Assembly (NCBI GenBank): GCA_015069695.1 | Contig: JADCRZ010000021.1 | Coordinates: forward strand, 1 to 64,000 | DNA length: 64,000 nt | From: Williamsia sp. | Lineage (GTDB): Bacteria; Bacteroidota; Bacteroidia; Chitinophagales; Chitinophagaceae | Direction of reading: 5' to 3' | Shown: piece by piece, positions 31,682 through 48,100 of the stretch | Layout of the letters: each line of letters starts with the position of its first letter | How positions within the stretch are numbered: position 1 is the stretch's first letter | The notes under the pieces: generated by a model | Told to the model about the DNA's origin: nothing | What the model saw: only the letters and a program-made list of their open reading frames with translations | Database searches by the model: none | Program-made: the position numbers and the translations under genes

Positions 31682-31777
31682 AGCTTGTGTATTATTTGAC
31701 AACTGGATTGCATGCACGCAGGCGCATACAGCCAGTTAAGAAGTTAAAGATGAATAATAATAATTAAAAAAGCAATT

Positions 31778-33151
31778 TTATAAATGCTGGTCTTCTTCTT
31801 CCTTGAACAGGTCGATGATACCATCTTTAAACTTGCCCCAGAAATCACGCAACCCCTTCCTGTTTCTAACTTTTTCTCTTGTTATTATTTCCTCTTCTGC
31901 TTCCGGCTCATCGATGGGCTCAGCCACTTTCAAAGTTTCCGGTATCTCTACTTTTCTGTGCGTGCTTTCAAATTGCTTTCTGTTGTGTTCAAAATCACTG
32001 TATCCTTTTAAGATCAACCCGATACAGGTGGCGTAAGCAGGTTTGCTCAGCTCTTCGATGTGGCCGCTGGCCAGGTGTTCATTGGGAAGACCGATGCGCG
32101 CATTCAGGCCGGTGACATATTCGGTGAGCTGGATCAGGTGCTTCAGTTGCGAACCACCGCCGGTAAGCACAATGCCGCCGTTGAGCATGCGATTGTCCAG
32201 GCCTACCTGCTTCAGGTGGTAAGAGACAAAGTCCATGATCTCACTCATGCGGGCCTGGATGATGCCGGCCAGGTTTTTTACGCTGATCTCCTTGGCAGGC
32301 ATGCCGCGCAAGCCAGGTATGGTGATGTATGCGTTGGCATTCGCTTCGTTTACAAGAGCAGAGCCAAACTGCACCTTCATTTGTTCAGCCTGTGTTTTCA
32401 GCACCCCCAATCCTGTTTTGATGTCGTTGGTGATGTTTTCACCCCCAAACGGAATAACGGCCGTGTGCTTGAGAATGCTTTCATAAAACACAGCCAGGTC
32501 GGTGGTGCCGCCACCAATGTCTACGATGGCTACGCCTGCCTCCAGGTCTTCGCTGGCCATTACAGCGCTGGCCGAAGCAAGCGGCTGCAGCACCATGTCC
32601 TTTGTAATCAACCCGCTTTTTTCAACGGCCCGGTTGATGTTGCGGATGGCATTCTTGTCGCCTGTAATGATGTGGAAATTGGCCCCGACTTTTACGCCGC
32701 CATACCCGATCGGGTTGGCAATGTTCTGAAAATTGTCAACTGTAAACTCCTGTGGAATCACATCAATAATCTGGTCGCCTGCGGGTATATACGTCTTGTA
32801 CTGGTCAGCGATCAGCTGGTCTACTTCACGCTGCGTAATTTCTTCATTGCTGTCGTGGCGGACGATATCGCCTCTTGTCTGAAGGCTTTTGATATGGTGT
32901 CCGGCTATTCCGACATACACTTCTTTAATGTCTAGGTGGGGGTTGGATGCGAAGCAGTTATTGAGCGCCGCAAGAATTGCCTTAATGGTTTCATCAATGT
33001 TGAGCACCTGTCCGTGTTTAACCCCATTGGAGTTGGAGCGACCAAAGCCCAGGATCTCAACTTTGCCGTGTTCATTTTTTCTACCTGCTATGGCGGCTAT
33101 CTTCGTAGTCCCGATGTCAAGCCCAACGATAACAGGTTGTTCATTGTTCAT
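31778..33151 (-). CDS. ftsA: Actin-like division protein FtsA
   Basis: This 457-residue actin-fold ATPase tethers FtsZ to the membrane. It has VGLDIGTTKIAAIAG at 9-23, DIGGGTTDLAVF near 206 (phosphate-2), and VLTGGGSQLKHL near 337. The last 25 residues (GLRDFWGKFKDGIIDLF) form an amphipathic helix suited to membrane binding. A charged, Glu-rich linker precedes this helix. It lies between ftsQ and ftsZ, 96 bp before the latter. Confidence 0.94.
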   Translation of the reverse strand: MNNEQPVIVGLDIGTTKIAAIAGRKNEHGKVEILGFGRSNSNGVKHGQVLNIDETIKAILAALNNCFASNPHLDIKEVYVGIAGHHIKSLQTRGDIVRHDSNEEITQREVDQLIADQYKTYIPAGDQIIDVIPQEFTVDNFQNIANPIGYGGVKVGANFHIITGDKNAIRNINRAVEKSGLITKDMVLQPLASASAVMASEDLEAGVAIVDIGGGTTDLAVFYESILKHTAVIPFGGENITNDIKTGLGVLKTQAEQMKVQFGSALVNEANANAYITIPGLRGMPAKEISVKNLAGIIQARMSEIMDFVSYHLKQVGLDNRMLNGGIVLTGGGSQLKHLIQLTEYVTGLNARIGLPNEHLASGHIEELSKPAYATCIGLILKGYSDFEHNRKQFESTHRKVEIPETLKVAEPIDEPEAEEEIITREKVRNRKGLRDFWGKFKDGIIDLFKEEEDQHL

Positions 33152-33193
33152 AATATTTTGTTTTAGTTGTTTTAAAATTTCTCTCTGCGGATT

Positions 33194-34303
33194 TTACTGC
33201 AGTTTGGGCATTACGGCTTTTGGTTTTTCACGGGTTGAATTCTCTTTCGGTTTGGTTGCACGGGGTACAGGATTTACTTCCTTCTTTTTGGTTGCTGCAG
33301 GTTGTTTGGGGGCAGCAGCCTTTTTCCCGGGATCTTTTGGCTTGGGTGAAGACCGGATTATGTCTACCCTGCTTTGAGCAGGCCGGTCCGTCAGGGAATC
33401 ACCGGCTTGTTTCTTGTCAATGCTTTCTACTGGTATTGATTCAGCGGGGATCGAGTCGGTGAGCACCTTTTTAGATTCTTCAATCAGCTTTTGGATGTTT
33501 TTCAATGCCTGCAGCGAATCAATGCGGCTCACGAGGGTCTTTTTGGTACCGATCACCTGGTTATTGTATTCCACGCTGATGGTGCTGTACCGGTTAAAGC
33601 CATAATTTCTTAGGACCGTTTTATAGAACAAAGCCAGGCGGTTGAACTTGCCCGTATAATCCTCTCCGTCCCCAAACCTGATCAGGTGGCTGCCAAACGT
33701 AGGAACCATCTCAAATTGTCTCAAAGGAGTGATATCTACCTGCGCGATCTGTGCTTTCCAGAACGAATCCTGCAGAATGTACTGGCTCACATGACTGATC
33801 TGCCGGAGCAACACACTGTCACCTTTGCCTGTTGTGGGGAAGCCGGTAAAAACAGGCAGCTGCACCACAAAGCGTTTGTTGCCGGGAGGGATCAGGGCGC
33901 CGGAACTATCTATATAGAATGACTGTCCTTCTTCATTGAACACACGGCCTACCGGCTCTCTCTCCAGGATCAATACATGGAGCACAAAGTTGTTGTCGAA
34001 GAACAACCTGGCTTCTTTTACCCAAACATTTTTTTCCAGCAAGGTTTGTAGATGCTGCAAATCGCAGGCAGCGATAGATTTCCCGACCGGATGGTTGATG
34101 CCATTCTGGGAGATAAGCTCAATGATATCGTGGTTGTTCAAAAACATAAACCGGTTTGCACCTTGTATGCTGATCTTTACCTGCTGGCAGGTTTTGTGGT
34201 TTTTTATGTCGATGGCAGCTGCGAGCAATACAGTAACACCTGATGCCAGCAGCACCCAGACAAGGTTGATCAAGAATCGTGTTATTTTCCGCTTTATCTT
34301 CAT
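33194..34303 (-). CDS. ftsQ: Division protein FtsQ
   Basis: This 369-residue bitopic protein has a cytoplasmic basic start, a membrane helix at about 10-30, a POTRA domain (about 40-110, with VKISIQGANRFMFLNNHDI) and an FtsQ beta domain (SHLIRFGDGEDYTGKFNRL near 210). The C-terminal 80 residues are low-complexity, rich in Lys, Pro and Ala, and are absent from enteric FtsQ. It recruits FtsL and later proteins to the septum. The gene is 44 bp downstream of murC. Confidence 0.88.
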   Translation of the reverse strand: MKIKRKITRFLINLVWVLLASGVTVLLAAAIDIKNHKTCQQVKISIQGANRFMFLNNHDIIELISQNGINHPVGKSIAACDLQHLQTLLEKNVWVKEARLFFDNNFVLHVLILEREPVGRVFNEEGQSFYIDSSGALIPPGNKRFVVQLPVFTGFPTTGKGDSVLLRQISHVSQYILQDSFWKAQIAQVDITPLRQFEMVPTFGSHLIRFGDGEDYTGKFNRLALFYKTVLRNYGFNRYSTISVEYNNQVIGTKKTLVSRIDSLQALKNIQKLIEESKKVLTDSIPAESIPVESIDKKQAGDSLTDRPAQSRVDIIRSSPKPKDPGKKAAAPKQPAATKKKEVNPVPRATKPKENSTREKPKAVMPKLQ

Positions 34304-34347
34304 TGCCGGATAATAAAATCCCTTCCGGTATATTTAAAGCAGTTATC

Positions 34348-35736
34348 CTAAACTGCCTGTGTTATCAAATCTTTCAACGGCTTGACCAGTGCATCAATGT
34401 CACCCGCTCCTGCTGTAATCAGTACTTCGCCCGCTGTGCCATCAAGCTGGGGGAGATACTGATCCTTTATATAGTTGATCAACTCCTGTCTTGTCATGAT
34501 CTGTTTACGCGCCCGTTTTATCTTTTCAAAAATCAGCCCGCTGCTCACGCCTTCCACCGGCAGTTCTCTTGCCGGGTAAAGGGGGAGCAAAATTAGCTGA
34601 TCTGCGCTTTCCAAACTCATTGCAAATTCATCTGCGAAATCTTTTGTTCTGCTGTAGAGATGAGGCTGGAATATGATCGTACATTTCCTGCCCGGAAAAA
34701 GCGTTTTGACGCTCTTCAGCAAGGCGTTCAGCTCTTCCGGATGGTGTGCATAATCATCAATATACACCAGCTTGTCGCTCATTACAATGTATTCAAACCG
34801 CCTTTTTACCCCTTTAAAGCCTGCGAGGGCCTTCCTGATTGCCTCGTTTTCTATACCAAGTGCGTGGGCCACAGCTGTTGCAGCAATTGCATTCTCCACA
34901 TTGTGCATACCTCCCATGGGCAGTTCAACCTGGCTCAACAAGTTGTCGCTCATCACCACATCAAACTCGTATCCTCCTTGCCTGATGCGGATATTGGCGC
35001 CCCGCACGCTTGCAGCATCATTTTGCAAACTATAGCTAAGATGCCGCTGGCTGCCTGTTTCATAAGGCTGCTTCAATCCGTGCTTCGTCAGCAGCAGTCC
35101 GCCCGGTTTTACCTTTTGCATAAAATCAACAAAGGCATGCTGAAGGGCTTCTTCCGTACCGTAGATGTCCAGATGGTCTGCATCCATGGCACTTACAAGA
35201 GCGATGTCGGGGTTCAGGCGCAAAAAACTCCGGTCATATTCATCCGCCTCGATCACACAAACATTGCGTTCATGGCTCCAGAAATTGGTTCCATAATTAG
35301 CCGAGATGCCTCCCAAAAAAGCATTGCAACCATACCCACTGTCGCGCAGCACATGGGCGATCATGGTAGAGATGGTCGTTTTGCCATGCGTACCGGCTAC
35401 ACAGATATTGAATGATCCTGCGCTGATGATCTCCAGCACTTCGCTTCTTTTGAGTACAGGATAGCCATGCCGGCGATAGTATGCGAGCTGTCTATTTGTG
35501 GCAGGTATGGCTGGTGTATATACAACCAGTTGCACCTCCTTTGGCAGCTCGTCCAGCTCTTCGGTAAAACAGATCCTGATGCCTGATTGTGCCAGTGCGG
35601 TGGTTAATGGCGTAGCGGTTTTGTCGTACCCTTCTACTTCAACGCCGCGTGCATGGAAATACCTGGCCAGCGCGCTCATACCGATTCCACCAATGCCGAT
35701 GAAATAAATTTTATGTATATCGCTCAGCTGTATCAA
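34348..35736 (-). CDS. murC: UDP-N-acetylmuramate-L-alanine ligase
   Basis: MurC adds L-alanine to UDP-MurNAc in the cytoplasm. It has 462 residues. The N-terminal UDP-binding motif is IGIGGIGMSALA (about 13-24), the ATP-binding motif GTHGKTT is at 115-121, DADHLDIYG is near 191, and DDYAHHPEEL is near 322. All three Mur-ligase domains are present. It lies between murG (115-bp gap, the largest within the cluster) and ftsQ. Confidence 0.95.
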   Translation of the reverse strand: MIQLSDIHKIYFIGIGGIGMSALARYFHARGVEVEGYDKTATPLTTALAQSGIRICFTEELDELPKEVQLVVYTPAIPATNRQLAYYRRHGYPVLKRSEVLEIISAGSFNICVAGTHGKTTISTMIAHVLRDSGYGCNAFLGGISANYGTNFWSHERNVCVIEADEYDRSFLRLNPDIALVSAMDADHLDIYGTEEALQHAFVDFMQKVKPGGLLLTKHGLKQPYETGSQRHLSYSLQNDAASVRGANIRIRQGGYEFDVVMSDNLLSQVELPMGGMHNVENAIAATAVAHALGIENEAIRKALAGFKGVKRRFEYIVMSDKLVYIDDYAHHPEELNALLKSVKTLFPGRKCTIIFQPHLYSRTKDFADEFAMSLESADQLILLPLYPARELPVEGVSSGLIFEKIKRARKQIMTRQELINYIKDQYLPQLDGTAGEVLITAGAGDIDALVKPLKDLITQAV

Positions 35737-35851
35737 AGTACTCAGGCCGTTTCTAAATTGTTGAACAATCAGTTTTACTTAGTCGAAAAGTTTAGCATGC
35801 CGCTACACGTCATCCTGCATAAATTCTACGGTCATACAAACAACATCGCTG

Positions 35852-36943
35852 CTACGCGATCGATTTTAATATTTCCGTCGCCACCCGTTTATCTGCATCT
35901 ACAAACGCCATCTGGGCTATGTTCTGTCCGAGTTCATCTAGTTTCATCCCGTCTTTCGACAACTCAACTACCAAAGGAACGAGTTTATTGTTTGCTTCAT
36001 TGTCTTTTACTAGCACTCCGGCCCCGTTCTGAACCAGGTGCATGGCATTCATGGTCTGGTGGTCTTCCGCTGCAAACGGATATGGAACAAATACAGCCGG
36101 TTTTTTCATCACGCACAATTCTGCAATAGCCATTGCGCCTGCCCGTGAGATCACCATATCAGCCGCTGCGTAGGCGTATTCCATCTGTGTGATAAAATCG
36201 CTTACATAGATATTCTCTTTTCCCTGCGCCAGCTGTTTGCCTTTTGCGGCATAGGGCTTTCCTGTTTGCCAAAGCAGCTGCAGGCTGTTTTCTGCAAGCA
36301 GTTCGAGATGGGTTGCTACAGCTTCATTGATGCTGACCGCACCCAGGCTCCCTCCGATCGACAGAACAGTTTTTTTTGCCGGATCAAGTCCGTAAAACCG
36401 GATCCCCTGTTCGCGCGTGATATGCGAATGGGCGATCGCTGAGCGCACCGGATTGCCACTTAAAACAAGCTTGTCTTTTGGAAAGAACTGCTCCATGCCG
36501 GCACTGGCAACAAACACTTTCACAGCTTTTTTTCCCAACACCTTGTTCGACCGGCCAGCGTAGGAATTTGATTCATGGATGAAAGTAGGAATGCCTTGCT
36601 GTTGTGCAAACCGCAGAACCGGAAAGCTGGAATAACCACCCACACCAATAGCAGCATCCGGCCGGAAACTGCTGAAGATGTTTCTTACCTGAAAAAAACT
36701 TTTTGCCAGCTTGTATGGCAATGCAAAATTTTTTATCAAAGAACTCCGGTTATACCCTGCTATGTCCAATCCCCTGATCTCATAACCTGCCTGCGGTACT
36801 TTTTCCATTTCCATTTTTCCCTTGGCGCCCACAAACAGGATCTCTATGGTTGGCTCAAGCTCCCGGAGCGCATTCGCGATCGCAACGGCCGGAAATATAT
36901 GTCCGCCTGTTCCTCCCCCCGCCATGATCACTTTTTTGCTCAT
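35852..36943 (-). CDS. murG: Lipid II-forming GlcNAc transferase MurG
   Basis: MurG transfers GlcNAc to lipid I at the inner face of the membrane. It has 363 residues of GT-B fold. The donor/acceptor loop AGGGTGGHIFPA is at about 8-19, GVGGYSSFPVL near 101, and the UDP-GlcNAc signature RAGAMAIAELCVMKKP near 266. It is preceded by ftsW (54 bp) and followed by murC. Confidence 0.95.
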   Translation of the reverse strand: MSKKVIMAGGGTGGHIFPAVAIANALRELEPTIEILFVGAKGKMEMEKVPQAGYEIRGLDIAGYNRSSLIKNFALPYKLAKSFFQVRNIFSSFRPDAAIGVGGYSSFPVLRFAQQQGIPTFIHESNSYAGRSNKVLGKKAVKVFVASAGMEQFFPKDKLVLSGNPVRSAIAHSHITREQGIRFYGLDPAKKTVLSIGGSLGAVSINEAVATHLELLAENSLQLLWQTGKPYAAKGKQLAQGKENIYVSDFITQMEYAYAAADMVISRAGAMAIAELCVMKKPAVFVPYPFAAEDHQTMNAMHLVQNGAGVLVKDNEANNKLVPLVVELSKDGMKLDELGQNIAQMAFVDADKRVATEILKSIA

Positions 36944-36997
36944 TGCTTAAACCTGGTCTAAATAAATTGTTTCTACCTGCATCCGGGTCCTGCTCTC

Positions 36998-38302
36998 TTA
37001 TTCTTTTTCTGCTACAGGTTCTTCTTCCTCTTGTTCTACGGCAAGTGCTTGTTCCTTCTTTAGTTTTCCTTCTGCCTGCTCAACGTTTCTGGCCACGCTT
37101 AAGATAATTCCGATCGCCAGACAGGTAAACAGGAATGAACTACCGCCCATACTTACCAGCGGCAGGGTAACACCGGTTACCGGAAACAAGTTTACATTCA
37201 CGGCCATGTTCGTCAGGGCCTGTATCGCGAGCATAAAGCTCAAACCCAGAGCAAGAAACGCACCAAAAGCATACGGGCATTTTCTGAAAATCCGGATGCT
37301 TCGCAACAAAAAAATCATGTATACAAACAAGATCACCGCGCCACCTATAAGTCCGTACTCCTCAATGATGATTGCATAAATAAAGTCGGAATAAGGATGG
37401 GGCAAAAAGTTTCGCTGTTCACTATTACCTGGTCCTAGTCCGACCCATCCGCCCTTGGCAATAGCAATCTTTGCCTGGTTTACCTGGTAGTTGTCATCGT
37501 CATCGGCTTCCTGGCTTCCATACATAAAATTGTCCACCCGATTCACCCAGGTATGCACGCGGGCAAACAATTTGGAGCCGCTTTCTGTTTTTGTTCTTTC
37601 CACACCTCCATCCTTGTGCTGGTACACAGCGGCGAGGATCAGCATCAGCACGGGTATCATTGCAATGCCTACTACCAGCAACAAATATTTTACCGGTACG
37701 CGTCCGATAAACAAGAGGAGCAGACTTGTAGCGCCGATGAGTAAAGCAGTAGATAAGTTGGCAGGCGCAATCAGCAAGCATATAATGCCTACAGGTATGA
37801 TGATGGGCAGGAATCCCTTTTTAAAATCCTTGATCACCTGCTGGCGTTTGCTCAGCAGCCGGCTGATATACATAAAAAGGGCAAGCTTTGCGAGGTCTGA
37901 TGTTTGAAAGGTCAGCTGGATAATAGGCAAGCGGATCCAGCGGCTGCCTTCATTCAAACGCACGCCAAAAAATAAGGTATAAATCAGCAACGGTATAACA
38001 AGCAGAAAAAGGATCAGGGAAACCCTGGAGTAAAGGGTATAGTTCACCCGGTGCGCAAAATAAATCACCAGGATGCCCAGTACAATAAAAGCGACCTGTT
38101 TAAACAGGTAAGACTCATTGCTCTTGCTCATCTTATACGCCAGCGTTCCGGTAGAGCTGTATACCACCAGCAGGGAGAACAATGCAAGCAATACAACGAT
38201 GGACCAAATAACTTTATCGCCCCTTGTCTTCCTGAGCAGGTTGGGGCCTACGTGCTGAAAAGATAAAAGATCACTCACCTGTATTTGCTTTGTGTCGCTC
38301 AT
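36998..38302 (-). CDS. ftsW: Septal SEDS glycosyltransferase FtsW
   Basis: FtsW polymerises septal glycan with its partner PBP. It is a 434-residue SEDS protein with about ten membrane helices. It shows NEGSRWIRLPIIQLTFQTSD near 121, AIAKGGWVGLGPGNSEQRNF, PHPYSDFIYAIIIEEYGLIG, and late GVTLPLVSMGGSSFL. The Glu/Gln-rich C-terminal tail (KKEQALAVEQEEEEPV) is cytoplasmic. Start ATG 38302 is chosen; the frame can extend 14 residues upstream without conserved sequence. Confidence 0.94.
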   Translation of the reverse strand: MSDTKQIQVSDLLSFQHVGPNLLRKTRGDKVIWSIVVLLALFSLLVVYSSTGTLAYKMSKSNESYLFKQVAFIVLGILVIYFAHRVNYTLYSRVSLILFLLVIPLLIYTLFFGVRLNEGSRWIRLPIIQLTFQTSDLAKLALFMYISRLLSKRQQVIKDFKKGFLPIIIPVGIICLLIAPANLSTALLIGATSLLLLFIGRVPVKYLLLVVGIAMIPVLMLILAAVYQHKDGGVERTKTESGSKLFARVHTWVNRVDNFMYGSQEADDDDNYQVNQAKIAIAKGGWVGLGPGNSEQRNFLPHPYSDFIYAIIIEEYGLIGGAVILFVYMIFLLRSIRIFRKCPYAFGAFLALGLSFMLAIQALTNMAVNVNLFPVTGVTLPLVSMGGSSFLFTCLAIGIILSVARNVEQAEGKLKKEQALAVEQEEEEPVAEKE

Positions 38303-38383
38303 GGTTGAGAACCGGATAAATAAAATCTGAGAGCTGTCAGCCAATCAGCTGATAACTTGAGAATAGGATATTTTGCAGGCAGC

Positions 38384-39724
38384 TTACAGTTCCATCACTG
38401 CATCTTTAAACTGCTTGCCCCGGTCTTCATAGTTTTTGAACAAATCAAAGCTGGCACAGGCAGGGCTCAGCAGCACTACACCATCTTTCTCTGCTAGCGA
38501 AAACGCCAGCTGAACAGCTTCTTTTGCACTGGACGCATCTGCCACATGGGCCACTTTTTTGTCAAAAGCTTCATGGATCTTGGCATTTTCCAGTCCCATG
38601 CAAACGATGGCGGTTACTTTTTGCTCAACCAGTTCTTCGATCAGCGAGTAATCATTGCCTTTGTCTACCCCGCCCAGGATCAGCACGGTAGGCTTGCTCA
38701 TGTTTTCCAGGGCATACCAGGTAGAGTTGATGTTGGTTGCCTTGCTGTCGTTGATGAAATCAACTCCTTTCACCGTGGTCACATATTCCATGCGGTGTTC
38801 GAGCGATTCAAAAGAGGCAATGGCTTCCTTGATCTTTTCTTTGCGCAGCCCGAGGGTGGCAGTAGCAATCCCTGCAGCCAGCGTGTTGTACTGGTTGTGT
38901 TTGCCAGGCAACGCAAAATCGTAGATGCTCATGGAGATGGGCTCGTTTCCTGTTTTGATGGTTACTTTATCATCTTTGATAAAGGCCCCTTTGTTTAATT
39001 CTTCTTGCATACTAAATGGTAATAGGTTAGAATATATGGAAAACCGATTTAAGTACTCTTTTGTAACCGGATCGTCCTGGCAGTAGATGAAAAAATCATC
39101 GGCTGTCTGGTTCATTGCGATCCGGAACTTGCTCCTGATATAATTTTCAAATTTGTATTCATACCGGTCCAGGTGATCTTCCGTGATGTTTGTCAGCACC
39201 GCGATCTCGGGCCGGAAGCCATGGATGTCATCCAGCTGAAAACTGCTCAGCTCTGCTACATACAAGGCTTTGGGATCAAGGGCTACCTGGCGTGCAAAGG
39301 AGTAACCGATGTTTCCGACCAGGGCACAATCCAATCCGCCGTGCCGGCAGATATGGTAGATAAGTGCGGTCGTCGTTGTCTTCCCATTGCTTCCCGTGAT
39401 GCCAATGATCTTGCTGTTGCCCTTGTGTCGGTAAGCCAGCTCAATTTCACTGATCACCGGTATTCCCTTTTGCCTGATCTTTTTTACCAGGTCAGCTTTT
39501 TCAGGAATGCCCGGACTCTTCATTACTTCATCTGCTTCCAGTATCTTGGCTATGCTATGGCTTCCTTCCTCATACCGGATCCCTGCTGCTACCAGTTCTT
39601 CCCGGTATTTTTCTTTGAGCGGACTGCTGTCTGACACAAATACATCATACCCTTCTTTTTGTCCCAGCAGGGCTGCGCCGATGCCGCTTTCGCTGCCACC
39701 CAGTATAACCAGTCGTTTCGCCAT
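38384..39724 (-). CDS. murD: UDP-N-acetylmuramoyl-L-alanine-D-glutamate ligase
   Basis: MurD adds D-glutamate to the peptide stem precursor. It has 446 residues with three Mur-ligase domains. The N-terminal Rossmann-like motif is ILGGSESGIGAAL (about 7-19), the ATP loop is TGSNGKTTT (110-118), TNITEDHLDRY is near 178, and NDSKATNINST is near 314. It lies between mraY and ftsW, as in most cell-wall clusters. Confidence 0.95.
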   Translation of the reverse strand: MAKRLVILGGSESGIGAALLGQKEGYDVFVSDSSPLKEKYREELVAAGIRYEEGSHSIAKILEADEVMKSPGIPEKADLVKKIRQKGIPVISEIELAYRHKGNSKIIGITGSNGKTTTTALIYHICRHGGLDCALVGNIGYSFARQVALDPKALYVAELSSFQLDDIHGFRPEIAVLTNITEDHLDRYEYKFENYIRSKFRIAMNQTADDFFIYCQDDPVTKEYLNRFSIYSNLLPFSMQEELNKGAFIKDDKVTIKTGNEPISMSIYDFALPGKHNQYNTLAAGIATATLGLRKEKIKEAIASFESLEHRMEYVTTVKGVDFINDSKATNINSTWYALENMSKPTVLILGGVDKGNDYSLIEELVEQKVTAIVCMGLENAKIHEAFDKKVAHVADASSAKEAVQLAFSLAEKDGVVLLSPACASFDLFKNYEDRGKQFKDAVMEL

Positions 39725-39765
39725 GTCGCTTTTTCCTTCTTGTTAAGATCTGCCCTCCCCCGCAC

Positions 39766-41046
39766 TTACCTGATCTTCAGGGTTGCGATTGAAACAATCA
39801 CACACAATATGGTCACGATCCAGAAGCGGATGGCGATCTTGCTTTCATGATAGCCCAGCTTCTGGTAGTGATGGTGCAGGGGACTCATCAAAAAAATCCT
39901 TCTGCCTTCTCCCCATTTCCTTTTGGTATATTTAAAATAGCTCACCTGTAACATCACGCTCACTTCTTCTATCAGGAACACGCCACAGAAGATAGGCACC
40001 AGCAATTCCTTGCGCACAATGATCGCCAGCGCCGCAATAATTCCACCCAGCATCAGGCTGCCCGTATCACCCATAAACACTTGGGCCGGGTATGCATTGT
40101 ACCAGAGAAATCCTACGCAGGCCCCGATCATGGCACCGATAAAAATCGAGAGCTCGCCCAGGTTGGGTATGTACATGATGTTGAGATAGTCTGCAAACCG
40201 TATATTGCCGCTGGCATAGGCAAAAATGCCCAGGCATGCACCGATAATGGCACTGACGCCCGTTGCCAACCCATCCAGCCCGTCCGTAATATTGGCCCCG
40301 TTTGAGACAGCGGTCACAATAAATATGACGATGATGATGTACAGGATATAGGTTAGTCCGCGCAAGGCTGTGGGCAACAGCTTTGAATAATTGAACTCAT
40401 GCGTTTTTACAAAAGGAATGGTTGTGATGGGTTCAGGTGCTTCAAAGAAGAAGCGTTCTTTTCCTTCAATGCGCAGGATCTTCAGGCCTGTTGTGTCAGA
40501 AGGCTTTGTCAGGCCGGTATATTCCCGCCATACTTTGGTATTGCTGTTAAAGTACAGGGTGGCGCCTACGGCAACGCCAACCACTACCTGGCCCAGGATC
40601 TTGAACCATCCGGCCAGCCCGTCATCATCTCCTTTTTTGTAAGTAACCCCTTGCAGCTGTGCTTTTCGTTTGGCCTTCAACTTTAGGTAGTCATCGATAA
40701 AGCCGATCATGCCCAGCCAGATGGTGCTGAAGATCATCAGGCGCAGATAAGCTTTGTTTAAGTTTGCCAGCAAAAGGGTAGGGATCAGGATCGCGAGGAT
40801 AATGATAATGCCTCCCATTGTAGGCGTTCCTTTTTTCAGGTTTTCGCCTGCCAGTCCCAGTTCGCGCACACTTTCCCCGATCAGCTTTCCCTGCAAAAAA
40901 TTGATGAGCCTCCTGCCATACACCGTGGTAATGATCAGGCTCAACAGCACGGCCAGCAGGACCCTGAAGGTGATAAACTGGAACAAGGCTCCGCCGGGGA
41001 ACTTGATTCCATGTATTTTCAACCATTCAGACAAGTGATATAACAT
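39766..41046 (-). CDS. mraY: Phospho-MurNAc-pentapeptide translocase MraY
   Basis: MraY makes lipid I on undecaprenyl phosphate. It is an integral membrane enzyme of 426 residues against about 360 in enteric bacteria. It shows GKGTPTMGG-like KKGTPTMGGI near 72, FIDDYLKLKAKRK near 115, NITDGLDGLATG near 250, and PLHHHYQKLG near 390. The extra length is an insert of roughly 60 residues after the second Asp motif (about 130-210), probably a periplasmic loop with an extra segment. This seems usual for the phylum. Confidence 0.95.
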   Translation of the reverse strand: MLYHLSEWLKIHGIKFPGGALFQFITFRVLLAVLLSLIITTVYGRRLINFLQGKLIGESVRELGLAGENLKKGTPTMGGIIIILAILIPTLLLANLNKAYLRLMIFSTIWLGMIGFIDDYLKLKAKRKAQLQGVTYKKGDDDGLAGWFKILGQVVVGVAVGATLYFNSNTKVWREYTGLTKPSDTTGLKILRIEGKERFFFEAPEPITTIPFVKTHEFNYSKLLPTALRGLTYILYIIIVIFIVTAVSNGANITDGLDGLATGVSAIIGACLGIFAYASGNIRFADYLNIMYIPNLGELSIFIGAMIGACVGFLWYNAYPAQVFMGDTGSLMLGGIIAALAIIVRKELLVPIFCGVFLIEEVSVMLQVSYFKYTKRKWGEGRRIFLMSPLHHHYQKLGYHESKIAIRFWIVTILCVIVSIATLKIR

Positions 41047-41073
41047 GTTTTTTATTTAGCTGGCTTAATCCTT

Positions 41074-42540
41074 TTATTTTCCCAATGCTTCAAACATTTC
41101 CATCATAACTTCCTTGTCGTCAAAATGGAGTTTGACTCCTTTTGTCTCCTGGTATTTCTCATGCCCCTTGCCGGCAATCAGGAGAATGTCTTCCGGTTGC
41201 GCCAGGTGAACGGCGGTGCGGATGGCTTCTTTCCTGTTTTCCACGGCCATGTATTTTCTTCTGGCGGCACTGTTCAACCCCGTTTCCATGTCGTGTATGA
41301 TCGTGGCAGGGTCTTCGTTTCGCGGGTTGTCGGATGTAAAGATGACCTTATCGCTGTACTCACAGGCAACCTCTCCCATCAGCGGCCGTTTGGTTTTGTC
41401 GCGATCACCGCCGCAACCCACCACGGTAATGATCTGCTCATGCCCTTTGCGTAATTTTTTGATGGTCTTGAGCACATTGAGAAGGGCATCGGGTGTATGT
41501 GCGTAATCTACAATCCCGATCACTTTTTCTCTGGCCGACACACTGTAATCAAACCTGCCTTCTGCGCCGGTCAGGATGCTGAGGCAACGTAAGATCTCGT
41601 GTTTATCTTCCCCGCTGCTGACCGCCGCACCGTACACAGCGAGCAGGTTGTAGGCATTGAATTCACCGATCATCCTGAAATGCACTTCCTGCTCATCAAT
41701 TTGCATGATCAAACCGGTGAGATTGTTTTCCCGGATCTTTCCGCTGAACTCGGCGACCGTTTTCAGGCTGTAAAATTCTTTTTTTGCGTGGGTGTTTTGC
41801 AGCATCACAGCTCCCCGCTTGTCATCGGCATTGGATAGCGCAAATGCATCCGAAGGAAGAAAGTCGAAAAACTGCTTTTTTACCCGGATATATTCATCAA
41901 ATGTTTTGTGGTAATCAAGGTGATCATGTGTGATGTTGGTAAATATACCGCCGTTGAAACGCAGACCCGCGATGCGGTGCTGGTGAATGGCATGCGAACT
42001 CACTTCCATGAATGCATGCGTACAACCTGCTTCTACCATCCGGCTCATAAGTTCAGCCAGGCTGATGGGGTCAGGCGTTGTATGCGTGGCTTCTACAACC
42101 TGCTCTCCTACCTGGTTCTGCACGGTGCTTAGCAAACCGCATTTATATCCCAAGGCAGTAAAGAGCTTGTAAAGCAAGGTGGCCACGGTTGTTTTACCAT
42201 TGGTACCGGTAACACCTATCAACTTTAATTTTTCTGAAGGCTGGCCCCAGAAATTTTGGGCCATATAGCCCGCTGCTGCGGCTGTATTTTCAACCTGAAC
42301 CCATACTACGTTTTTGGCTGGCTCAACAGGCATGTCTTCACATACCACGGCTACAGCTCCCTTGCTGATAGCCTGGGAGATATATTGATGCCCATCTGTA
42401 TGCGTGCCCTTTACGGCAACAAAGACCGCCCCTGCGCGCAGCTTTGCAGAATTCGTTTGTACATCACGGATGGTAATGCCTGTATCACCCTGCACAGCTC
42501 GGATGCTCACCTTGTATAATATTTCCTGCAAATTCATCAT
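41074..42540 (-). CDS. murE: UDP-MurNAc-tripeptide ligase, meso-DAP type
   Basis: MurE adds the third stem residue. It has 488 residues. The ATP loop is TGTNGKTT at 111-118, TNITHDHLDYH near 210. The DNPR motif (in FTSDNPRNEDP) marks preference for meso-diaminopimelate over lysine. ATG codons at 42540 and 42537 are both possible starts; a TTG just before them is less likely. It lies 25 bp downstream of the PBP gene. Confidence 0.94.
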   Translation of the reverse strand: MMNLQEILYKVSIRAVQGDTGITIRDVQTNSAKLRAGAVFVAVKGTHTDGHQYISQAISKGAVAVVCEDMPVEPAKNVVWVQVENTAAAAGYMAQNFWGQPSEKLKLIGVTGTNGKTTVATLLYKLFTALGYKCGLLSTVQNQVGEQVVEATHTTPDPISLAELMSRMVEAGCTHAFMEVSSHAIHQHRIAGLRFNGGIFTNITHDHLDYHKTFDEYIRVKKQFFDFLPSDAFALSNADDKRGAVMLQNTHAKKEFYSLKTVAEFSGKIRENNLTGLIMQIDEQEVHFRMIGEFNAYNLLAVYGAAVSSGEDKHEILRCLSILTGAEGRFDYSVSAREKVIGIVDYAHTPDALLNVLKTIKKLRKGHEQIITVVGCGGDRDKTKRPLMGEVACEYSDKVIFTSDNPRNEDPATIIHDMETGLNSAARRKYMAVENRKEAIRTAVHLAQPEDILLIAGKGHEKYQETKGVKLHFDDKEVMMEMFEALGK

Positions 42541-42565
42541 CAAAAAACCCTGTTGATTTTATATT

Positions 42566-44665
42566 TTATTCCAACCAAACTGTCATGCTTGCTTTTGGCA
42601 AAGGTGAACCAGGATCAACCGATTGCCTTACCACCCTTCCCTTACCGACCGGCACCACACGCACATTCATTTTTTCAAGCAGGTACAAAGCGTCTTTCAA
42701 CCCCATTCCCTTTAAATTTGGTACGGCTTGCCGGCCTACTGTTTTTGTAGAAACAACCGTTTGCTGATCGCTCGCATATATGCTGCTCCATTCGTTCTGT
42801 CCTGCCGAATCCTTGTACTGGAGCTGCATGGCCTGCATGATCTCCCGGACATCGTGCGTACTGGCAGCATAATAATAATTGCTGCTGTCCTTGTTCATAT
42901 TGATCTTGCCGGTAGCCCCGGTGGTGTTTACATAAGAAGCATATAATTTGTCGGCGATTTCCTTGAAGACCGGTCCGGCCACAGCAGCCCCATAAAATTT
43001 GGATGCATACGGTTTGTTCTTGATCACCACGATGCAGGAATACTGGGGATGATCGGCAGGGAAATAACCGGCAAATGAAGATTGATAGATATGATCAGCG
43101 TAACCGTGGCGGCCGTTGGCTACCAGGGCGGTGCCTGTTTTCCCGGCGATTTTGTAATAAGGATTTTGCAAGGCTTTTCCGGTTCCTTCGAGCATCACGC
43201 CTTCCAGACAAGCTTTCAGCTGTTCAAGTGTTTCTGCGCTGCAGACAGACTCTTCCACGACCTCGGGTTTGTTTTCTTTAACGGTCAAGCTGTTATTCTG
43301 GATCGCGCTTACCAGGTAAGGCTTCATCATCCTGCCTCCGTTGGCTACGGCGTTGTACAGCATCAAGGTTTGCAGCGGACTAACCAGCACCTCATAGCCA
43401 AAAGCCATCCAGGGAAGCGAAGTGGCACTCCAGGTTTTAGAGGCGGGTGATTTGATCACCGGATAGGTTTCTCCCACCAGCCCTACGCCGGATGGTTCAT
43501 TGAAGTGCAGTTTTTTAAGATGCGCTACAAACTGGGAAGGATTTTTTGCGTATCCGTTCATAGCCAGCTTTGCCATGCCTACATTGGAGCTGTGTTCAAA
43601 TGCTTCTTTTACGGTAACCACATAGCCATGATCCTCACTGTCGTAAACCGTGCGGCCGTTGACCTTCCAGGTGCCGCCTTCCAGGTTCACCAGATCGGTC
43701 AATTTGCAGTGTTTGTCTTCGAGCAGGGACAGCATGGTCGCCAGCTTGAAGGTAGAGCCGGGCTCGGATGCACGGATCGCATAGTTCAGGTCTTCCCAGT
43801 AGTTTTTACCTGTTCCTTTTCCCAGGTTGGCCACTGCCTTGATTTTACCCGTTGCCACTTCCATCACGATACAGGTACCATGTTCACACTCATTTTCAAT
43901 CATCATTTTCATCAGGGCATTTTCAGCAATGTCCTGGATGTTGACGTCGAGCGTCGTGATAATATCCTTTCCGTTTTCCGGATCGATCTGGTAGCCTTCT
44001 ACCGGCATGGCTACGCCGCCTGCAATGTAGCGGACCAGCTTGCTGCCGCTTTCTCCCTTGAGCAGCGAATCGTAGGTCCGCTCCAGTCCTACGTTCTGTG
44101 CATTTTTGCGGGCGAGTCCGATGGTCCGGTTGGCCAGCAGCCCGAATGGATTGAGGCGTTTGCTTTTTACTTCTACGATAAACCCGCTCTTGTTTCTTCC
44201 CAGGTTCACCAGGGGAAAATCGCGCATGCGCTGGTACTGGTCGAAGGAAAGATTTTTTTTGAGGGAAAAGTACCGGTCTTTTTTTCTCCAGCCCTCCCGG
44301 AGGAGCTTGCTGTAGTAAGATGAAGGCCGGTCGAGAAAAAGGCCGGCTAAGGAAACAGAAAGGGAATCCACCAGCTTTTTAAACCGGGCGCCACCTTTTT
44401 CGCGCAATCCTTCTGCACCGAAGTCGATGTAAATATCAAAATAAGGAACCGAAGTACTGAGCATGCTGCCATCTTCGCTGTAAATGGTACCGCGTTCGGC
44501 AGCCAGCTCAATGTATTTCTGGTGAAGGCTGTCGCTTTTTGAACGCCAGTAAGCACCCTGCGCCTGTTGAATGTAAACAGCCCGGCCGAGAATGACCAGG
44601 CTAATTACCACGATACCCAGGAAGCTCAGGTATACTCTCCATAATATGTCGCGCTTAACTTCCAA
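42566..44665 (-). CDS. ftsI: Septal penicillin-binding protein 3 with PASTA domain
   Basis: This 699-residue class B PBP is the septal transpeptidase partnered with FtsW. It has one membrane anchor (about 11-30), RGTIYSEDGSMLST in the dimerisation region, and the transpeptidase motifs STFK (Ser304, Lys307), SSN (359-361) and KTG (509-511). A single PASTA domain closes the protein (VPNLKGMGLKDALYLLEK, about 646-698). PASTA on FtsI is uncommon in Proteobacteria but known in Bacteroidota and Gram-positives. Confidence 0.94.
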   Translation of the reverse strand: MEVKRDILWRVYLSFLGIVVISLVILGRAVYIQQAQGAYWRSKSDSLHQKYIELAAERGTIYSEDGSMLSTSVPYFDIYIDFGAEGLREKGGARFKKLVDSLSVSLAGLFLDRPSSYYSKLLREGWRKKDRYFSLKKNLSFDQYQRMRDFPLVNLGRNKSGFIVEVKSKRLNPFGLLANRTIGLARKNAQNVGLERTYDSLLKGESGSKLVRYIAGGVAMPVEGYQIDPENGKDIITTLDVNIQDIAENALMKMMIENECEHGTCIVMEVATGKIKAVANLGKGTGKNYWEDLNYAIRASEPGSTFKLATMLSLLEDKHCKLTDLVNLEGGTWKVNGRTVYDSEDHGYVVTVKEAFEHSSNVGMAKLAMNGYAKNPSQFVAHLKKLHFNEPSGVGLVGETYPVIKSPASKTWSATSLPWMAFGYEVLVSPLQTLMLYNAVANGGRMMKPYLVSAIQNNSLTVKENKPEVVEESVCSAETLEQLKACLEGVMLEGTGKALQNPYYKIAGKTGTALVANGRHGYADHIYQSSFAGYFPADHPQYSCIVVIKNKPYASKFYGAAVAGPVFKEIADKLYASYVNTTGATGKINMNKDSSNYYYAASTHDVREIMQAMQLQYKDSAGQNEWSSIYASDQQTVVSTKTVGRQAVPNLKGMGLKDALYLLEKMNVRVVPVGKGRVVRQSVDPGSPLPKASMTVWLE

Positions 44666-44702
44666 TGATCTTATTTGTTTGGCGCTGTTAAATAATTTTG
44701 TT

Positions 44703-45038
44703 CTATCTGTTTTCTCCAGCCACCGAATCTTTAAGCACGTAAGGCGGTTCGGTGAGTGGCTTTAATCCCAGGGGCTCTACTGCTTTGAGCAGCTCACTTT
44801 GCTTGCTTTGCAGCATCACCTCGCTTTTCAGCGTTTTGTATTCATACTGCAGTTCCTTGATCTCCCTGCTGACCTTGCTGATGTCTTTGATCGTGTTATC
44901 GGAATAATGACCGTTGTAGATATACAGGATGGCCAGTATACCCAGAAAAAGAAAATAAGGAATGTTGCGCACGATCCATTCGTAGTTAAAGCGGTATTTC
45001 CAGAATTTTCTTTTTGCTTTTTTGTTTTCCGTAGTCAT
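44703..45038 (-). CDS. ftsL: FtsL-like division protein
   Basis: This 111-residue bitopic protein has a basic cytoplasmic start, a membrane helix at about 27-45 (IPYFLFLGILAILYIYNGH), and then a coiled coil (SREIKELQYEYKTLKSEVML). Sequence conservation of FtsL is weak. The call rests on topology, size and position between rsmH and ftsI. It forms a complex with FtsQ and FtsB-type proteins at the septum. Confidence 0.82.
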   Translation of the reverse strand: MTTENKKAKRKFWKYRFNYEWIVRNIPYFLFLGILAILYIYNGHYSDNTIKDISKVSREIKELQYEYKTLKSEVMLQSKQSELLKAVEPLGLKPLTEPPYVLKDSVAGENR

Positions 45039-45123
45039 CTATTCCGTTTGTTTTCTCTCTGATTTTATGAGGTCATTCCTGCGAACCTGCTCTCTTGCGG
45101 TCAAATTAAAGAACGGGCTGCTT

Positions 45124-46041
45124 TTACTTTCTTACGGCCACCCGCAATTTGGCACTGCCAGAACGCGGATTTCTTTGCAACTCTTCTTTACCGGGCAGCA
45201 CCGGCTTTTTGTAAAGCGGCTCCAGCAGGCTTTTCTTGCTTTCATGTTGCCCGAAAGGATTGCTATCCTGCTCCGGCTCAAAATCACCCCGCTTGAAAAA
45301 GTTCTTCACGATCCTGTCTTCAAGCGAATGAAAGGTGATGATGGCGGCCCTGGCGCCCGGCTTCAGCACGGCGGGCAGCTGTTGCAGCATTTCACGCAAG
45401 GCACCCAATTCATCATTTACTTCTATGCGCAAAGCCTGAAAAACCTGCGCAAAATATTTGTGCGGGTTGCCTTTTACCACCTTGTAAAGAGCGGTTTTGA
45501 AGTTATTGACAGATTGGAGGGAGGTTTTCCTTCGTACGGCTACAATGGTATGTGCCAGGGTTTTTGCATTGGTGACCTCTCCATACTGTTCAAACAACTT
45601 GTGCAGTTTTTCTTCGGGATAAGTTTGAATGACGTCGTAAGCAGTCAGGGTTTGCCGGCGGTCCATGCGCATGTCCAGGTCGGCTTCAAAACGGGTGGAA
45701 AATCCTCTGTCGGCTTTGTCAAGCTGGTGGCTTGATACACCCAGATCGGCCAGCACCCCATCCACCGGTCCGGTTTTGTGCAACCGGAGAAAGCGCTCCA
45801 GGTGGCGGAAATTGTGGGGCAGGAAAAGCAGCCGGGGATCAGGTTGCATGTTTTGCAGTGCATCTGCATCCTGGTCAAAAGCAACCAGCCTGCCTTCGCT
45901 GCCCAGCAGTGAGAGGATCCTCTTTGCATGACCTCCCCCGCCAAAGGTGCAGTCAACATATAAACCGTTTGCCCGTATGGCAAGGGCATCGATAACTTCC
46001 TGCAACAGCACCGGTTCGTGATAACTGTCTTTTTCTTCCAT
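45124..46041 (-). CDS. rsmH: 16S rRNA m4C1402 methyltransferase RsmH
   Basis: RsmH N4-methylates C1402 of 16S rRNA using SAM. It has 305 residues. It begins with YHEPVLLQEVIDAL, followed by the SAM motif DCTFGGGGHAKRIL (about 30-43). Further marks are DGVLADLGVSSHQLD near 93, GFSTRFEADLDMRMD, and AAIITFHSLEDRIVK. It starts 2 bp after the mraZ stop, so the two are translationally linked. Confidence 0.95.
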   Translation of the reverse strand: MEEKDSYHEPVLLQEVIDALAIRANGLYVDCTFGGGGHAKRILSLLGSEGRLVAFDQDADALQNMQPDPRLLFLPHNFRHLERFLRLHKTGPVDGVLADLGVSSHQLDKADRGFSTRFEADLDMRMDRRQTLTAYDVIQTYPEEKLHKLFEQYGEVTNAKTLAHTIVAVRRKTSLQSVNNFKTALYKVVKGNPHKYFAQVFQALRIEVNDELGALREMLQQLPAVLKPGARAAIITFHSLEDRIVKNFFKRGDFEPEQDSNPFGQHESKKSLLEPLYKKPVLPGKEELQRNPRSGSAKLRVAVRK

Positions 46042-46043
46042 CC

Positions 46044-46511
46044 CTACTCTCCCTCATTTACGGCTCCGCCCGTCATCACTTGCTGGGCAAGATGGCTGAA
46101 CGTATCAGGCGAAAACGATTCAAAGAACTGTGCATATTTCTGTTTGTCCCAGATCTCAATTTTGTTCACGGCCGCAACCAGTACAATGTCCTTTTCAAGG
46201 GATGCATACTCTTTTAGGTTTTGCGGCACCAGCAACCGGCCTGCCGAGTCTGTTTCGGTGATGGTGGCCCCGTTTAAAAAATATCTTCTGAACTCCCTGA
46301 CCTTCGGATCAAAATCGTTCAGCTTGCTGATTTCTGCGAATATGGGCTCCCAACTGGCGATAGGATACAGACTCAAACATTTTTCAAAACCCCGGTTGAT
46401 TACGAACCGGTTGTTGCTATCTTCGGGCAGTTGCTTTTTAAACGCGGCCGGCAATAAAAATCTACCTTTTGCGTCGAGGGTAGATTCATATTCACCTAAA
46501 AAACCTGTCAT
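46044..46511 (-). CDS. mraZ: Transcriptional regulator MraZ
   Basis: MraZ is a DNA-binding repressor that controls its own cell-wall/division operon. It has 155 residues with two AbrB-like halves, each ending in the D-x-x-G-R type motif: STLDAKGRFLLP near 8-19 and ETDSAGRLLVP near 85-95. ATG 46511 is chosen because MraZ proteins begin with a few residues before FLGEY. An alternative ATG at 46547 would add 12 residues and overlap the likely promoter. Its probable operator lies at 46561-46575. Confidence 0.92.
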   Translation of the reverse strand: MTGFLGEYESTLDAKGRFLLPAAFKKQLPEDSNNRFVINRGFEKCLSLYPIASWEPIFAEISKLNDFDPKVREFRRYFLNGATITETDSAGRLLVPQNLKEYASLEKDIVLVAAVNKIEIWDKQKYAQFFESFSPDTFSHLAQQVMTGGAVNEGE

Positions 46512-46546
46512 GTAAAAAGCATTCGGATTATGAACATTAATTGACA

Positions 46547-46575
46547 CAAAATAACACTATTTCCCACTTTCCCAC
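46547..46575 (-). promoter_or_regulatory. mraZ promoter and probable MraZ operator
   Basis: On the minus strand, two tandem GTGGGAA units (46575-46569 and 46567-46561) lie 50-64 bp before the ATG at 46511. MraZ is known to bind repeated TGGG-type sites upstream of its own gene. A one-mismatch -7 element (TTATTTTG, 46554-46547) follows, so bound MraZ would cover the -33/-7 region. The 8-bp period is tighter than the roughly 10-bp spacing known in other bacteria. Confidence 0.6.
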
Positions 46576-46594
46576 CTAAACGCATTCCGATTAT

Positions 46595-46736
46595 TTTTCC
46601 ACAGCAGATGTGGAAAACAGCGGCCGTTTTCTTCAGATCCAGGTGCAGTTCTAAGTGATATACGCACTGGCACCCGGCTTTGTGCCATGCTTAAATGTGG
46701 ATAAGTTGTGAATAGTTCCACAAACCATGTGAACAA
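46595..46736. promoter_or_regulatory. Cluster of DnaA-box-like 9-mers
   Basis: A perfect DnaA box, TTATCCACA, is on the minus strand at 46704-46696. One-mismatch boxes are TTTTCCACA at 46595-46603, its inverted copy at 46617-46609, CTATTCACA at 46715-46707 and TTGTTCACA at 46736-46728. The last three minus-strand boxes are spaced 11 and 21 bp apart, close to whole helical turns. An A/T tract follows (46737-46745). The region lies between the divergent mraZ and queA genes and is non-coding. It could be a replication origin or a DnaA-controlled promoter. Confidence 0.5.
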
Positions 46737-46867: not shown

Positions 46868-48100
46868 ATGCAGCATCCCAAACACCTTCTCACCAACGCT
46901 TATACCTACACGCTCCCCGATGATCGCATCGCCCGCTTTCCGCTGGCAGCAAGAGATCAATCCAAATTGCTTATATATCAAAAGGGTGAGATCCGGGAAG
47001 ACCGGTTTTACCAGCTGGATCGTTATCTCCCTACAGGCTCGCTGCTGGTATTCAACAATACCAGGGTGATTCCTGCCCGCCTCCTTTTTCGCAAACAGAG
47101 CGGAGGTGTGATTGAGATCTTTATGCTTGAACCGGAGCAAAAAGAAGCTTACGGAAGCCTGTACGAAAAAAATCTGGGCACCATCCGCTGGAAATGCCTG
47201 ATCGGGGGGGCCAGCAAATGGAAACGGGGACAGGTCATGCAAAAAGAATGGACATGGGAAGGACGGGAGGTCCAGTTAGAAGCCTCCATCGCTGAACGAA
47301 AACCGGATTGCTTTGTGATCCAGTACAATTGGCGCCCTGCTGAAACCAGTTTTTCAGAAATCCTCCAGGAGGCTGGTTCTATTCCTATTCCCCCGTACCT
47401 CAAGAGGGAAGCAGCCTCGGAAGATACGGAGCGGTATCAAACCATCTATGCACGCGAGCAAGGCTCCGTGGCGGCCCCTACTGCCGGTTTGCACTTTACC
47501 GATGGGGTGTTTGCAGCCCTTGCAGCCAAAGGGATCCAGGTTTCTTTTATCACCCTGCATGTAGGCGCGGGTACGTTTGCCTCTGTAAAAAGTAGAACCC
47601 TGGAAGGCCATGCCATGCATGCAGAATGGATGAATATAGAACTGGCCTTTGTCAGGCAGCTCATTGCGCACCAGGGCCCGGTCATTGCCGTAGGAACGAC
47701 CTCCCTCCGCACACTGGAGAGTTTGTATTGGCTGGGTACCAAATGTTGGAAAGACCCTTTGCTTTCACCTGGACAACTGACGCTTGATCAATGGGATCCT
47801 TATGAGGAAGCTCCGCGTGCTGCACCGGAACCCAAGCAGGCATTGCAAGCCCTGGAAGAATGGATGGTGAAGAAAGGGTTGCAGCAACACATGACAGAGA
47901 CCCGCCTGCTGATCGCGCCGCCTTACCAGCCCAGGCTGGCACAGGCACTCATAACCAATTTTCACCAGCCGGGCTCTACCCTTCTCTTGCTGGTAGCAGC
48001 GGTCACCAAAAACAAATGGAAAGAAATCTATGATTGGGCCTTGGCGCACGAATTCCGTTTCCTGAGTTATGGCGACGGATGCCTGATCTATTTTGATTAA
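46868..48100 (+). CDS. queA: tRNA ribosyltransferase-isomerase QueA
   Basis: QueA transfers and isomerises the ribosyl moiety of SAM onto 7-aminomethyl-7-deazaguanine in tRNA, giving epoxyqueuosine. It has 410 residues, longer than the usual 340-360. It shows the early DDRIARFPLAARDQSKLL near 20-37, LVFNNTRVIPARLLF near 60-74, the signature GSVAAPTAGLHFT near 199-211, and ITNFHQPGSTLLLLVAA near the end. ATG 46868 is favoured over a longer frame that would start inside the promoter. It overlaps the convergent kinase gene by 4 bp. Confidence 0.93.
   Translation: MQHPKHLLTNAYTYTLPDDRIARFPLAARDQSKLLIYQKGEIREDRFYQLDRYLPTGSLLVFNNTRVIPARLLFRKQSGGVIEIFMLEPEQKEAYGSLYEKNLGTIRWKCLIGGASKWKRGQVMQKEWTWEGREVQLEASIAERKPDCFVIQYNWRPAETSFSEILQEAGSIPIPPYLKREAASEDTERYQTIYAREQGSVAAPTAGLHFTDGVFAALAAKGIQVSFITLHVGAGTFASVKSRTLEGHAMHAEWMNIELAFVRQLIAHQGPVIAVGTTSLRTLESLYWLGTKCWKDPLLSPGQLTLDQWDPYEEAPRAAPEPKQALQALEEWMVKKGLQQHMTETRLLIAPPYQPRLAQALITNFHQPGSTLLLLVAAVTKNKWKEIYDWALAHEFRFLSYGDGCLIYFD

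Follow-up and report, generated by a model that had tools for sequence, protein, structure and literature searches.

Predicted DnaA boxes ahead of mraZ belong to a Chitinophagaceae module that may couple the division and cell-wall operon to the replication initiator

We consider it fairly probable, from sequence comparison, that five predicted DnaA boxes ahead of mraZ in the 64,000-nucleotide stretch of DNA analyzed here (the window) are the local copy of a Chitinophagaceae-wide module, and that this module serves as a DnaA-responsive promoter element that ties the entire dcw operon (mraZ through ftsZ) to the initiator of replication. The genome to which the window belongs (222 contigs, 7.66 Mb; the window lies on contig C124) encodes a single DnaA, typical by NCBIfam and with a GRDHTT motif in domain IV. 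The first dcw gene is mraZ (46044..46511, minus strand; TIGR00242 above cut-off), whose closest relatives are found in Chitinophagaceae (Paraflavitalea, Puia, and Chitinophaga). Control from the box region would extend over the operon that mraZ opens (29795..46511, minus strand), comprising mraZ, rsmH, an ftsL-like gene, an ftsI-like PBP gene, murE, mraY, murD, ftsW, murG, murC, an ftsQ-like gene, ftsA, and ftsZ, of which the first six were named via NCBIfam and the others from translations and gene order. A fixed, family-wide module at the head of the dcw operon offers a concrete, mutable target in Bacteroidota for the open question of how bacterial division is linked to the initiation of replication. 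In the open-access literature on DnaA with mraZ or on Bacteroidetes origins, we found no report of this module or of such control in Bacteroidota.

The region is non-coding and lies between divergent genes, as the initial annotation had described, with the mraZ ATG at 46511 on the minus strand and the queA ATG at 46868 on the plus strand (queA, 46868..48100). Closest to mraZ is the proximal box, TTTTCCACA (46595..46603, plus strand), which reads TGTGGAAAA on the mraZ strand at -92 of the mraZ ATG and represents the family-wide invariant site. A second TTTTCCACA (46609..46617, minus strand) completes a perfect 9-bp inverted repeat with a 5-bp spacer (46595-46617; TTTTCCACA-5-TGTGGAAAA), the inverted pair proposed earlier; in the relatives read, there is no such arm at the equivalent place. 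Further from mraZ, the three tandem array boxes on the minus strand have starts 11 and 21 bp apart, again as first noted: the perfect TTATCCACA (46696..46704), which misses the family register slot at -102 from the proximal box by no more than 1 bp; CTATTCACA (46707..46715), 11 bp on and within 1 bp of slot -113; and TTGTTCACA (46728..46736), two helical turns (21 bp) beyond that, at -133, where relatives have sites at -134/-135. All five sites thus stand where they had been placed, but their description as one perfect and four one-mismatch boxes depends on the consensus chosen: TTWTNCACA gives three perfect boxes and two with a single mismatch, whereas the strict TTATCCACA gives one perfect box, two with one mismatch, and two with two, and either general DnaA consensus may differ from the specificity of this genome's own DnaA.

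Counted individually, boxes with one mismatch are no commoner in the window than expected (140 observed versus 141 expected), yet the clustering of the five sites is exceptional. Exact TTWTCCACA occurs 149 times in the 7.66-Mb genome, so by a Poisson estimate about 0.0003 triplets of exact boxes within 110 bp would be expected per genome; one is observed here, and dnaB has another upstream. With no more than one mismatch allowed, the genome contains a single copy of the tandem pair TTATNCACA-NN-TTATNCACA, at 46696-46715.

Comparison of 80 Chitinophagaceae mraZ loci, picked by mraZ similarity and related to one another, so that the locus counts are not independent, places the window sites in a wider pattern. 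A strong proximal box (TGTGGAAAA/TGTGGATAA; TGTG[GT]A[AT]AA) starts between -92 and -98 of the mraZ ATG in 74 of 78 distinct loci, a range of 7 bp, and is absent in its exact form from the other four. Its start lies 58 to 60 bp from the end of the TTATTTTG motif of the probable promoter in 74/75 loci, and its GTGG lies 36 bp from the GTGGG core of the MraZ operator in 70/76. In the window, that operator corresponds to direct repeats (GTGGGAAAGTGGGAA ATAGTGTTAT TTTGTG; 46545..46576, minus strand) which overlap the probable promoter, are conserved in relatives, resemble the published MraZ repeat type AAAGTG[T/G] (PMC8475190), and form an element separate from the DnaA boxes. The density of perfect boxes is 6.15/kb across the 250 bp preceding mraZ, compared to 0.10/kb downstream. 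A separate search led to five further family genomes; array boxes are present in all five and an exact proximal box in three, with two lacking it.

Upstream of the proximal box, and in register with it, the relatives carry an array of weak TTATnCACA sites that face in one direction at steps of 10 to 11 bp, or about one helical turn. Of the sites with at most two mismatches to TTATNCACA, 371 lie on one strand and 50 on the opposite strand, compared to 115 and 36 in dinucleotide shuffles. Their spacings peak at 10/11, 21, 32, 42-43, and 53 bp, at 17 to 87 times the shuffled level, and their positions peak near -60, -70, -81, -92, -102, -113, and -124 from the proximal box. Dereplication to 47 loci left this pattern unchanged, with 10.5 bp the best period among those tried. 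CACA occupies 25% of in-phase slots but 2.6% of out-of-phase positions, roughly a 10-fold difference, and in array units picked solely for having CACA in a register slot, the five bases left free resolved to T-T-A-T-n (A 0.82, T 0.90), while background CACA sites were flat. In 30 loci, the window among them, a divergent queA lies upstream of mraZ; elsewhere this position is taken by a divergent gene for a BamD-like lipoprotein, a co-directional gene resembling alpha-amylase, or a histidine kinase gene (names from translations). The neighbor, queA included, varies across the family, whereas the module remains at mraZ. Against this background the window reads as a degenerate copy of a larger and more regular module: its array retains three recognizable boxes, off the family register by 1 to 2 bp or less, and it has the extra inverted box at 46609.

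A strong site at a fixed position combined with a helically phased row of weak sites would favor cooperative binding and fits a DnaA-responsive promoter element. We envisage that DnaA would occupy the strong proximal box, whose end is separated by about 50 bp from the probable -7 element downstream, and would nucleate on the best of the array boxes. When DnaA-ATP is plentiful, binding could extend cooperatively along the weak boxes, set one turn apart in a single direction, as an orisome-like filament, which together with the oppositely facing proximal box might form a single nucleoprotein complex. This complex could in turn alter transcription from the MraZ-autorepressed promoter, so that expression of the division and cell-wall operon would be coupled to the state of the replication initiator. 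Activation is slightly likelier than repression because the sites lie upstream of the promoter core. The earlier suggestion, a division promoter under putative DnaA control, draws support from conservation throughout the family, from the constant distances to the MraZ operator and the mraZ promoter, and from the persistence of the module when the neighbor changes. A bolder version, which we advance tentatively and rate a little short of an even chance, is that an origin-like DnaA filament acts as a transcription switch: a helically phased DnaA-ATP array, more regular than the family's origin, would gate the whole division and cell-wall operon jointly with MraZ, and the initiation of replication would thereby directly set the expression of division genes throughout a bacterial family.

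An alternative hypothesis, which we regard as unlikely but the most serious competitor, is that the cluster is a DnaA titration or nucleotide-exchange locus of the datA, DARS, or Bacillus subtilis box-cluster type, situated incidentally at mraZ and buffering DnaA without regulating the gene. A regular array of many weak boxes could hold DnaA, and non-coding control regions of that type include datA and DARS (PMC4585315). However, titration needs neither rigid distances from the MraZ operator and the mraZ promoter motif nor retention with mraZ when the neighboring gene changes. The datA, DARS, and B. subtilis clusters resemble the mraZ module in being non-coding box clusters distant from oriC; to our knowledge, none of them is defined by fixed spacing to one promoter. 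The module may also have a dual role in titration and promoter control.

Somewhat less probable still is that the proximal box, and perhaps others too, are MraZ-binding repeats or sites for another regulator rather than DnaA boxes. The proximal-box sequence GTGGAAAA is one base away from the MraZ repeat GTGGGAAA, and at mioC in Escherichia coli, the site bound by MraZ overlaps a DnaA box (Eraso et al. 2014, cited in PMC4446571), which makes competition between MraZ and DnaA a real possibility. The mioC promoter is like the mraZ promoter in carrying DnaA and MraZ sites together, but there the sites overlap, whereas ahead of mraZ, the MraZ gene itself, they stand 36 bp apart. That offset places the proximal box outside the 10-bp register of the MraZ repeats, and the boxes have the core GTGGA, once GTGTA, in place of GTGGG. 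Proximal-box variation falls at bases that DnaA tolerates (TTTTCCACA/TTATCCACA/TTATACACA), and TTATnCACA emerges from the array units without having been selected for. In addition, the array is absent from the mraZ loci read in the sister family and in other members of the class (Bacteroidia) and phylum (leaving aside three class-level loci in which the mraZ start was not located), although the MraZ repeats are kept there.

The possibility first raised for these sites, that they are the chromosomal replication origin, is very improbable, although the boxes are clustered, intergenic, and adjoin an A/T tract. The GC-skew check that had been proposed was run by sampling skew in relatives and in two contigs of the window's genome (C124 and C172), and the minimum falls away from mraZ. 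On a 4.83-Mb contig of Chitinophaga sp. YR573 (NZ_FOJF01000001.1), sampled skew turns from mostly negative to mostly positive at 2.46 Mb; within the contiguous 430 kb spanning this switch, cumulative skew reaches its minimum at 2,528,001, coinciding with the top box cluster of those 430 kb (2,526,346-2,526,579). This cluster is flanked by a surA/ppiD-like gene on one side and nadA on the other, and ybeY and gidA are nearby (names from translations; nadA confirmed), whereas mraZ is at 1.2 Mb, 1.3 Mb from the minimum, and dnaA is at 1.68 Mb. In the window's own genome, nadA is on C172, where a skew minimum and a box cluster again coincide in the region upstream of nadA; on C124, by contrast, skew declines steadily across mraZ. 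Among relatives with both genes on one contig, mraZ and nadA are 1.0 to 1.5 Mb apart. A long contig of C. polysaccharea has noisy skew, mostly positive past nadA at 2.40 Mb, and is consistent with this placement; in the complete one-contig relative G043, skew was too weak for placing the origin. Because skew and synteny both contradict it, we reject an origin at mraZ. As a by-product, the family's oriC is probably located between the surA/ppiD-like gene and nadA, far from dnaA, at about 11500-11918 of C172 and at 2526346-2526915 of the YR573 contig. A chance cluster without function is the least credible explanation, since single near-match boxes in the window do occur at the expected frequency but conservation, register, and strand bias extend across 80 loci.

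Boxes also occur at other loci. Three strong DnaA boxes lie upstream of the replicative helicase gene dnaB, divergent from pheT (G000:C140:43038-43079; L082 10039-10080). Among dnaB loci of relatives, 16 of 17 (15 from the family, 2 from the sister family) have at least one perfect TTWTNCACA within 450 bp upstream, with 4.4 boxes/kb upstream compared to 0.15/kb downstream, making this region a candidate second DnaA-controlled promoter. Across 12 whole genomes, the tight tandem pair occurred eight times, against once for a reversed-pattern control; four of the eight are at mraZ promoters, one is at the YR573 origin, one is upstream of dnaB, and two are at unassigned places. Tight tandem DnaA-box pairs at unassigned places were noted at G101:C5:393781-393800 and G001:C7:3807358-3807377, and box pairs on C157 and C135 appeared on reading to be unrelated to the module. 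The dnaA promoter regions (L087-L096 and L001) contain no DnaA-box array; they share a conserved block about 100 bp before the start, around ATATTCGTCGTCCTGTCTGAAAA in Chitinophaga.

The DnaA-responsive promoter element proposed here has its closest architectural counterpart in oriC of E. coli, where, in the model of Rozgaja et al. 2011 as described in PMC4285127, arrayed low-affinity DnaA sites are filled from the strong nucleation boxes R1 and R4. Both systems combine strong boxes with runs of weak boxes in the same direction, and in both, an array and a single strong box face each other; unlike those arrays, the mraZ module lies away from the origin, is tied to a promoter, and is known from its sequence. 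The boxes at the oriC of the family itself are visibly less regular. In function, a warning for our reading comes from E. coli, where transcription of ftsZ proved not to depend on the DnaA boxes upstream of it (PMC8203912). Division-gene promoters bound by DnaA are described for ftsZ in Caulobacter and ftsL in B. subtilis (PMC8203912), the operon of the latter also containing rsmH and pbpB (PMC11019786). Like these promoters, the mraZ module would place DnaA boxes ahead of cell-division genes. Unlike them, it belongs to Bacteroidota and sets the whole dcw operon, from mraZ to ftsZ, behind a helically phased array.
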